Assembly (NCBI GenBank): GCA_002839185.1
Contig: PGXO01000011.1
Coordinates: forward strand, 1-64,000
Direction of reading: 5' to 3'
Length of the DNA stretch: 64,000 bases
DNA from: Synergistetes bacterium HGW-Synergistetes-1
GTDB lineage: Bacteria; Synergistota; Synergistia; Synergistales; Synergistaceae
Shown here one piece after another: positions 1,729-3,786 of the stretch. The translations under genes were made by a program, and so were the position numbers. Every line of letters begins with the position of its first letter. Position 1 is the first letter of the stretch. A model generated the notes under the pieces. That model saw only the letters and a list, made by a program, of their open reading frames with translations, made no database searches and was not told the DNA's origin.

Positions 1729-1822
1729 CTCTCAGATATGAAAAATAGGATACAATTCTAAATTAGAAAGATTATTTTTCAGACCCAAATGTGATGCCAA
1801 ACATCAGGAAAGGATGAAAATA

Positions 1823-2479
1823 ATGAAATTTTTTATCGACACCGCAAATATCGATGAAGTAAGGACAGCCTGTTCATGGGGCATTATCGCAGGAGCGACC
1901 ACCAATCCTACTCTTGTATCAAAAGAGGGCAGCGTGGATTTTCACACCCGAGTACGTGAGATAGCGGAGACTGTTAAGGGGCCTGTCAGCGCTGAAGCAG
2001 TGTCGCTCGAAAAAGATAAGCTGATCGAGGAAGCAAGAGTGATCGCTAAGATAGATCCTAATGTAGTAGTAAAGATCCCGCTCTGTCCGGATGGACTTGG
2101 AGCTGTAAGGGAGCTTTCAAAAGAGGGTATCAAAACCAACGTGACCCTTATTTTTTCAGCGAACCAGGCTATTCTGGCGGCTGCTGCGGGTGCAACTTAT
2201 GTAAGTCCCTTTGTCGGACGCCTGGATGACATCGGTGAAGACGGGATGCAGCTTGTCAGGGATATAGCAGAGATATTCGATATCTACGGGATAGAGACGC
2301 AAATAATCGCAGCCAGCCTTCGCCATCCGGCTCATGTCTTTGAATCAGCAAAGGCCGGGGCGCATATTGCGACAGTCCCGTTCAAAGTTCTCAAAATGAT
2401 GTTTGACCATCCTCTGACAGCGAAGGGGATAGACCAGTTCAACAAGGACTGGGAAAAGTATCTGGGAGCTAAGAAATAA
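1823..2479 (+). CDS. tal: Transaldolase, short TalC/FSA-type
   Basis: 218 residues, the length of the short transaldolase/fructose-6-phosphate aldolase subfamily. It transfers a dihydroxyacetone unit between sugar phosphates, linking pentose phosphates and glycolysis. The N-terminus [13 protein letters not shown] and GATTNPTLV are family signatures. The Schiff-base lysine is in [11 protein letters not shown], near residue 86. An earlier ATG at 1814 abuts AGGAAAGG directly, while the ATG at 1823 has proper spacing and gives the canonical N-terminus, so I chose 1823. It appears monocistronic between a terminator and the stem-loop array. Transaldolase versus aldolase activity cannot be decided by reading. 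Confidence 0.92.
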
Positions 2480-2485
2480 CCACCC

Positions 2486-2750
2486 TTGGAGAATTTGCAG
2501 CGTCTGCGCTGCGGAGAATTTGCGGTGTCACCACCGCGGTGAATTTGCGAGAGAAGCACTCGCGGAGAATTTGCTGAATGATCCATTCAGCGTTGAATCG
2601 GCCCTTAAATCATAAATCCTGAATTCTCCGCCTGACAGGGTCAGGCAAATTCCCCGCGATGCGAAGCGATGCAAATTCTCCAGCGACGAAAGTCGCAAAT
2701 TCTCCGCAGCCAAAGGCTGCAAATTCCCCGGCGGACGTATTCTCCGCCCG
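2486..2750. repeat. Two opposed tandem arrays of stem-loops with constant linkers and covarying stems
   Basis: Forward half: the linker GGAGAATTTGC at 2488, 2513, 2538 (GGTGAATTTGC) and 2564, period 25-26. Each linker ends in GC, which opens a stem: GCAGCG/CGCTGC (2497-2512), GCGGTG/CACCGC (2522-2537), GCGAG/CTCGC (2547-2563), GCTGAATG/CATTCAGC (2573-2591). After a centre at about 2592-2620 the reverse-complement linker GCAAATTCTCC or GCAAATTCCCC recurs (2621 degenerate, then 2645, 2671, 2695, 2719). Its stems are GCCTGAC/GTCAGGC (2630-2646), an imperfect GCGATGC-GAA-GCGATGC (2656-2672), GCGAC/GTCGC (2683-2696), GCAGCC/GGCTGC (2706-2720) and GGCGGA/TCCGCC (2730-2748). Stem sequences differ between units but stay self-complementary. 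The array fills the whole gap between convergent tal and lysK, and no T-tracts follow the stems. Confidence 0.93.
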
Positions 2751-2754
2751 CTGC

Positions 2755-3786
2755 TCAAATGGAGGACATTATTCTCGGAAGGGCGAGTTTCAGGACTTCT
2801 ATCCCCTTCAGATATTCGGATACGGGGATCTGTTCATTGGAACTGTGGTCGTATAAGGAGTTGCCGGGCCCGTATGCTCCCATGTGGCAGCCCCAGGGTG
2901 ACAGAACGTTGAAATCGCATGTCCCCTGCTTGGCCAGCACTCTCGGAGTCTCACCGCAGTCCCGTATAGCGTTCCTGAAGGCCCGTATTACGGGATCGGA
3001 CTTATGGACCCCGTAGGGAGGCACATATTCTATAATTTCGGATCTTACCCCGAAGGCCGCTGCGGTCTCTCTTATCATAAGTTCGAGCTCTTCCTGATCG
3101 GCCCCCAGAGGAGTCCTGAGGTCCATTGTGATGCTGGCGCTTCTTTTGCCTGCCTCATGTCCTTCCATTTCCATTATCGCCACAGACCAGCCCTTCCCCA
3201 TGTTTCTGGTTATATCTATTATGGAAGATGCTGCCATGACTGAATCAGTTATTGGCCCCGGACTTCCGGACCTGTGCGCCCCATCGTCTTCGCCCTTAAT
3301 GTCAAATAGGATCCTGCCCCTATAGGAGATCGCTACGCCGTCGCTCCCAGTGGGCTCGCCTATGACGCATGCCTCGGGGGAGTGAAGGGGCATGCGGAAC
3401 CTTGCTCCCTTTGAGTCGATCTCTTCTCCTACCGCTGCGACAAAGGTGATCCTCCATCCCTCCGGTACTGGAACAGCACCTCCCGCTACAGCCATTGCAC
3501 AGCACGGACCTTTTGCGTCAACGCTTCCTCGTCCCTGGATCACCTGTTCGTTGATGATAACTTCCGGGCCTCCTGGTACGGTATCGATGTGGCTCAGCAG
3601 GACAAGCTCCTTATCTCCTGTTCCCCGTTCTGCAACAACACTGCCTGCTCCGTCAAGGTGCGAGCCGCTCCATCCAAAGCGGGGGAGCCTGTCTGCCAGC
3701 ATCCTTGCAGCATCAGCTTCGTGTCTGGTCGGACTGGGGACAGCTACAAGATCTGCCAGGAGCCTGGCTGATTCAGGGAGTCCCAT
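2755..3786 (-). CDS. lysK: [LysW]-lysine/ornithine hydrolase LysK
   Basis: 343 residues, M20-family metallopeptidase that frees lysine (or ornithine) from the C-terminal Glu of LysW, the last step of carrier-protein lysine synthesis. LLSHIDTVPG holds the first metal His and catalytic Asp, VDAKGP the bridging Asp, and AVGEEIDSKGA the catalytic Glu pair. It starts with ATG one base after the lysJ stop, so it is translationally coupled and the last gene of the cluster. Its stop codon is 5 nt from the stem-loop array. Length and N-terminus are normal. Whether the product is lysine, ornithine or both is not decided by the sequence. Confidence 0.93.
   Translation of the reverse strand: MGLPESARLLADLVAVPSPTRHEADAARMLADRLPRFGWSGSHLDGAGSVVAERGTGDKELVLLSHIDTVPGGPEVIINEQVIQGRGSVDAKGPCCAMAVAGGAVPVPEGWRITFVAAVGEEIDSKGARFRMPLHSPEACVIGEPTGSDGVAISYRGRILFDIKGEDDGAHRSGSPGPITDSVMAASSIIDITRNMGKGWSVAIMEMEGHEAGKRSASITMDLRTPLGADQEELELMIRETAAAFGVRSEIIEYVPPYGVHKSDPVIRAFRNAIRDCGETPRVLAKQGTCDFNVLSPWGCHMGAYGPGNSLYDHSSNEQIPVSEYLKGIEVLKLALPRIMSSI

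Follow-up and report, generated by a model that had tools for sequence, protein, structure and literature searches.

A hairpin array between the fsa/talC and lysK-like genes of a Synergistaceae bacterium: a probable copy of a genus-specific family of mosaic palindromic repeats

Results

The hairpin array between two convergent genes

The window, that is, the whole stretch of 64,000 nucleotides analyzed, contains at 2488-2748 an array of short hairpins. To its left lies a gene for a transaldolase-like fructose-6-phosphate aldolase (fsa/talC, 221 aa; 1814-2479, plus strand; TIGR00875, 315 bits, above the cut-off), and to its right, convergent with it, a gene of the [LysW]-lysine/ornithine hydrolase family (lysK-like, 343 aa; 2755-3786, minus strand; TIGR01902, 250 bits, above the cut-off), which adjoins an argD-like gene. 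Eight GGNGAATTTGC linkers with at most one mismatch, four per strand, were found in the array, with starts at 2488, 2513, 2538 and 2564 (plus) and at 2645, 2671, 2695 and 2719 (minus). The remaining 20 linker matches in the window have two mismatches each, which is the chance level. The step from linker to linker is 24 to 26 nt in either arm, and both arms were also detected by TRF. The number and period of linkers in the original prediction were thus confirmed, as was the arrangement of nine units, four on the plus side and five on the minus side; the centre lies near 2610.

On the plus strand, linker 1 (GGAGAATTTGC, 2488-2498, no mismatches) leads into hairpin unit 1 (GCAGCG-TCTG-CGCTGC, 2497-2512), where the covariance model, built for one linker-hairpin-linker unit, matches 2488-2523 with 52.8 bits. 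Linker 2 (2513-2523, from the linker scan) precedes unit 2 (GCGGTG-TCAC-CACCGC, 2522-2537), and linker 3 (GGTGAATTTGC, 2538-2548, one mismatch) precedes unit 3 (GCGAG-AGAAGCA-CTCGC, 2547-2563; model match 2538-2574, 48.0 bits). The arm ends with linker 4 (2564-2574, linker scan) and unit 4 (GCTGAATG-ATC-CATTCAGC, 2573-2591). The element centre (2592-2629) recurs in other copies as GAATTCAAGATTTATGATTTAAGGGCC..AATTCACC, as judged by comparison of copies. Beyond it, on the minus strand, unit 5 (GCCTGAC-AGG-GTCAGGC, 2630-2646) and linker 5 (GGGGAATTTGC, 2645-2655, one mismatch) are followed by unit 6 (GCGATGCGAAGCGATGC, 2656-2672), which occupies the same position in many copies, pairs only by its outer GC/GC and is closer to a direct repeat than to a stem-loop. 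After linker 6 (2671-2681, linker scan) comes an additional A at 2682 (minus strand, T), as is usual for this position, and then unit 7 (GCGAC-GAAA-GTCGC, 2683-2696), linker 7 (2695-2705, linker scan), unit 8 (GCAGCC-AAA-GGCTGC, 2706-2720; model match 2695-2729, 54.5 bits) and linker 8 (GGGGAATTTGC again, 2719-2729, one mismatch). The outermost hairpin (GGCGGA-CGTATTC-TCCGCC, 2730-2748, minus strand) has a full linker on its left side only and recurs outside other arrays as a GGCGG..CCGCC unit. Self-complementarity, predicted for all units, was therefore found in eight of the nine; the exception, unit 6, had been absent from the predicted list of stems.

The fold of the array has a z-score of -9.5 as RNA and -8.9 as DNA, and no shuffled sequence equals either value. 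Because the arms are inverted, linkers of opposite arms pair across the centre in the minimum-energy fold, which gives one large branched hairpin. No intrinsic terminator (GC stem followed by a T-tract) was found in the array by a terminator scan. The spacers between linkers are 12 to 23 nt, most of them self-complementary, and many arrays have the same spacers at corresponding positions. In agreement with the original prediction, the array is neither a terminator series nor a CRISPR.

Covariation of the stems

Each unit consists of the constant linker GGNGAATTYGC (11 letters) and a variable self-complementary cassette with GC at both ends. Among 178 distinct cassettes gathered without selection for pairing, the outer stem had a mean of 4.4 bp, compared with 2.8 bp after the 3' halves were shuffled among cassettes of equal length and 3.1 bp in the largest of 300 such arm shuffles; the constant GC..GC ends give two of these pairs in real and shuffled cassettes alike. 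Of 14 cases in which near-identical cassettes differed at two stem positions and no more, 8 showed compensated changes of the pairing partners, for example GCGGCTTTTCAAGCCGC / GCGGTTTTTCAAACCGC and GCAGCCTCTGGGCTGC / GCAGCGTCTGCGCTGC. In an alignment of 30 cassettes, which was pre-selected for five outer pairs so that its own pairing percentage is not evidence, 46 cells were changed on both sides, compared with 14 in shuffles and 4 to 11 in slid structures. Since the cassettes of dispersed copies are related, all of these counts overstate the number of independent events; like the other statistics, they come from stretches picked around elements together with a few control stretches. Arm shuffles, compensated changes and the alignment agree that the stems covary, with pairing kept while the sequence changes.

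The original prediction took such pairing as strong evidence that structure is kept. The preservation itself stands, but kept pairing alone does not prove selection, because template switching in replication can both generate hairpins and keep them intact, with a result that resembles compensatory change (PMC8794818). The stem mismatches, read linker first, comprise four G.T and six A.C (ten events only); selection at the RNA level on that strand would favour G.T, and thus their near equality in this small sample lends no support to a function as RNA. Loops vary far more than the linkers that separate the hairpins, and loop inversions, a footprint of template switching, are rare.

Distribution of the family

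The family is dispersed. In the host genome (2.17 Mb), 63 units were scored by the covariance model, 53 of them at E<=0.001, and a 281-bp segment of the window had 44 BLAST places. It was found in all eight genomes of the genus, the seven others carrying 3 to 71 units each by the same model, so that the predicted occurrence of the motif elsewhere was borne out by both the pattern and the model searches. Outside the genus, the two-linker pattern was found in none of 180 other Synergistota genomes, and among 45 further genomes from the same family the covariance model picked up a single weak unit. In a scan of a wide genome collection, about half of the matches were in further Synergistaceae bins from the same genus; the others were lone sites in unrelated phyla, in keeping with chance matches to a gapped pattern of 20 bases. 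No copy matched in plasmid and phage collections, and viral contigs gave three single matches. The window array had no match at E<=1 among 4227 Rfam families.

The units are spread very unevenly over the host genome (G000). Six contigs, C1, C3, C4 (after 216 kb), C6, C10 (before 39 kb) and C11, bear 62 of the 63 units, and the dnaA contig C2 bears none; this spread suggests that units are kept out of the origin part of the chromosome.

The linkers lie between genes: 77 of 80 exact linkers in the examined stretches of genome were intergenic, on gene calls made with a home-made codon score and in stretches picked around elements plus a few control stretches. Half of the linkers appeared to be inside 'genes' in a first call with a short ORF limit, a result that vanished with coding scores. 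The genes flanking 105 array sites were co-directional in 54 cases, convergent in 27 and divergent in 24. Together with the differing content of the tal/lysK gap in sister species (see below), these counts speak against the proposed role tied to the convergent tal and lysK, and against a terminator or mRNA-end role confined to convergent genes in general. As high-copy, intergenic, short palindromes in opposed orientations, the units belong to REP/BIME sensu lato.

Turnover between relatives

The content of the tal/lysK gap differs in all six relatives examined. The orthologous gap holds different mosaics of 394 to 485 bp in G132, G130/G129 and G135, an ordinary 157-bp spacer in G134, and 59 bp with one perfect palindrome (GGGGAATTTGCAGCG-CAGA-CGCTGCAAATTCCCC) in G131; G129 and G130, which have almost the same sequence over much of their length, do not count as independent. 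At other gene gaps, near-empty and filled sites were found between relatives, which may reflect either insertion or deletion, and the near-empty sites had no clean target-site duplication. With respect to MITEs, inverted arms were observed, but no clean target-site duplication. Single units are also gained or lost, since near-identical elements of G131 and G130 differ by one whole 25-nt unit and one 11-nt unit. The compared genomes are metagenome bins, as the host genome may be too, and N-gaps coincide with element loci, repeats being the points at which assemblies break, so some of these differences may be assembly artefacts.

In several cases, tract breakpoints resembling those of recombination were seen by inspection at or near elements. 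In comparisons between genomes of the genus, tracts of near-100% identity at L248, L254 and L255 stop abruptly at or beside mosaics, next to genes of 67-90% identity, as though recombination had broken off at the mosaics. A possible argument for purifying selection, that elements are more conserved than flanking genes between G131 and G130, was dropped because these near-100% tracts often extend into the neighbouring genes.

Nested mosaics and other repeats

An element is built of a centre flanked by two arms of opposite orientation, and either arm is a tandem array of linker and cassette. These arrays are nested within larger mosaics together with two other kinds of repeat, tandem 11-nt units and a CGTC-tagged REP pair. 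The 11-nt units, of the form G-NN-RR-N-C plus RRTN, make up the outer layers; 82 arrays of at least three units were found, of which 80 are intergenic, and none was found in reversed sequence. Their classes include GCTGAGC, GGCAAGC, GTGAAGC, GTCAAAC and GGGAATC (e.g. L191:5252-5480 and L188:10069-10112), and 11 nt make roughly one A-form helical turn. A frequent mosaic centre is the inverted pair CGTCNTYCCCG..CGGGRAYCCAG. A B-type (GTGAAGC) module is found inside the loop of a GCGAC hairpin, and three places on contig C10 carry this composite; on contig C6, one array is present in two inverted copies. Mosaics of several repeat types, as in BIME/NIME, are thus seen in other copies and in orthologous gaps, and the window copy contains the hairpin-array module only.

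Y1 transposase genes

A RAYT-like gene had been suggested as a feature to look for; no Y1 (RAYT) transposase was found in the host genome, which is 99.9% complete. Among the eight genomes of the genus, Y1 genes are present in two (G130 and G129), and some of the five other Y1-free genomes have about 50 units. One 1.9-kb insertion bearing a Y1 gene adjoins an element. G130 has two near-identical Y1 genes (about 310-320 aa; L223:5200-6136 and L240:12843-13779), preceded by GGGGTCAGACCTACACATTTGACATAAT repeats, several copies of which occur at one site; the L223 insertion is missing from G132. RAYT as the present mover in the host genome is excluded, as far as the assembly goes. In the loci inspected by eye, no gene was seen framed by the same arms, as it would be in an autonomous parent element.

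Discussion

The array family looks like a novel form of the mosaic palindromic repeats known in other bacteria. The original prediction that no such family has been described was only half right, since mosaics of the BIME/NIME type and CGTC-REPs are of a closely related kind (PMC3733652). In Neisseria, extensive mosaic regions between genes contain CGTC-1 (dRS3) repeats interspersed with members of other repeat families (PMC3733652). Like BIME/NIME, including dRS3, the present elements are chromosome-wide, non-coding intergenic mosaics of short palindromes and neighbouring repeat types. However, the basic unit here is a head-to-tail tandem array, an arrangement rare or absent in REPs, and the linkers are constant, the stems vary freely and the layers of repeat types are nested symmetrically. 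Di Nocera and colleagues described CGTC-REPs as having a CGTC tag, a stem of 8-9 bp, a CCA tail and dimers in opposite orientation (PMC3733652). The frequent mosaic centre noted above, with its inverted pairs, fits this description of the repeats (CGTC-1 to -4, including dRS3 and RPE-6/RPE-4). The window array itself lacks a CGTC tag and is another module, the CGTC pair being the separate centre of other copies. CGTC-tagged REP-like palindromes were seen in the present genus and in four further genera of Synergistaceae (G000, G129-G136, G140, G165 and G168); Synergistota is absent from the phyla listed in the 2013 survey of CGTC-REPs (PMC3733652).

We consider, with a probability of roughly 70%, that the window segment 2488-2748 is one copy of a genus-specific, non-coding, intergenic family of mosaic palindromes that spreads and recombines as DNA. 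According to this reading, elements would propagate and rearrange at the DNA level, with linker-to-linker recombination or replication slippage adding, removing and exchanging whole units. Composites may reach new intergenic sites through an activity that is probably not a RAYT, or through homologous exchange between relatives. The hairpins would form in single-stranded or supercoiled DNA and so stay perfect, either because the fold is needed for propagation or because template switching restores one arm by copying the other, or both. A host function at the tal/lysK gap is not needed to explain the array, and individual copies may have a domesticated role. A bolder version, in which the family is a novel class of mobile non-coding bacterial DNA whose dedicated enzyme reads folded single-stranded DNA and the shape rather than the sequence of the cassette, seems to us unlikely. 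Such DNA would have a two-part grammar, namely a class-specific constant linker with a variable cassette that must be self-complementary, or an 11-nt unit ending in RRTN.

Could the array act as RNA instead? Many REPs are thought to protect or regulate flanking mRNAs (PMC3733652), and the very stable fold on either strand would suit transcribed arrays that protect or regulate the mRNAs of flanking genes. However, arrays are found between divergent genes (24 of 105 sites) as well as between convergent ones (27), the tal/lysK gap of sister species holds other content or almost nothing, and there is neither a G.U bias nor an Rfam match; we therefore regard a structured RNA or mRNA-end element as improbable. 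We give a similarly low chance to a purely neutral origin, in which palindromes are made and kept by template switching in replication alone, with neither propagation machinery nor selection. This mutagenesis of quasi-palindromes is already known to keep the arms of hairpins complementary (PMC8794818), and the single perfect palindrome at the orthologous site of G131 would fit it. It is, however, a mutational mechanism and not an element, and it leaves dispersal and linker constancy unexplained: dispersed homologous copies with the same order of units require a copying process, and together with the constant linkers and the rarity of loop inversion they make a purely local mutational origin insufficient.

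Mobilization by a known type of enzyme is harder still to reconcile with the data. The family resembles GTAG REPs and REPINs in its short intergenic palindromes, compensatory subfamilies and inverted pairing, and the Y1 genes of G130 and G129, with one Y1 insertion beside an element, might point to REP/BIME elements moved by an IS200/IS605-like RAYT. Yet the stems have no GTAG tag and are free in sequence, the units carry GGNGAATTTGC in tandem order, six of the eight genomes, including the host, have no Y1 gene, and GGGGTCAGACC repeats of its own, not array linkers, precede the G130 Y1 gene; such mobilization is very improbable. We think just as little of an integron-like substrate, on which a tyrosine recombinase acting on folded single strands would recombine cassettes at the linker. 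A constant linker with a folded variable cassette and the clean gain or loss of single units would be expected of it, but the units are without genes, slippage between 11-nt repeats predicts the unit changes equally well, and no recombinase was seen beside the arrays examined. Hairpin and double-hairpin elements of mitochondria (Allomyces and sponges) differ in being organellar and, in sponges, in having mostly conserved stems and varying loops; we found no evidence of homology to them.

If the reading as a mosaic family spreading as DNA is true, the gene gaps of an entire genus are being rewritten by modular palindromic mosaics, which are not the same even in closely related species, and this happens without the transposase that is known to mobilize REPs. 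The roughly 180 distinct hairpin cassettes, all set in one constant frame, are also a natural data set for separating selection on structure from template-switch repair, which are usually confounded. They are a caution, too, that hairpins may covary in metagenome bins without being functional RNAs. A further large palindromic repeat (GCAATTGGGGCATCTCG..GCTAGCTTAGCAACA..CGACGTATTGATATACG..GCGTGTTGCGTCG..CTGCCCCAATTGC) was observed at L226:17540-17800, L189:6370-6560 and L190:15997-16120, with a tandem duplication that differs between the close relatives G129 and G130.
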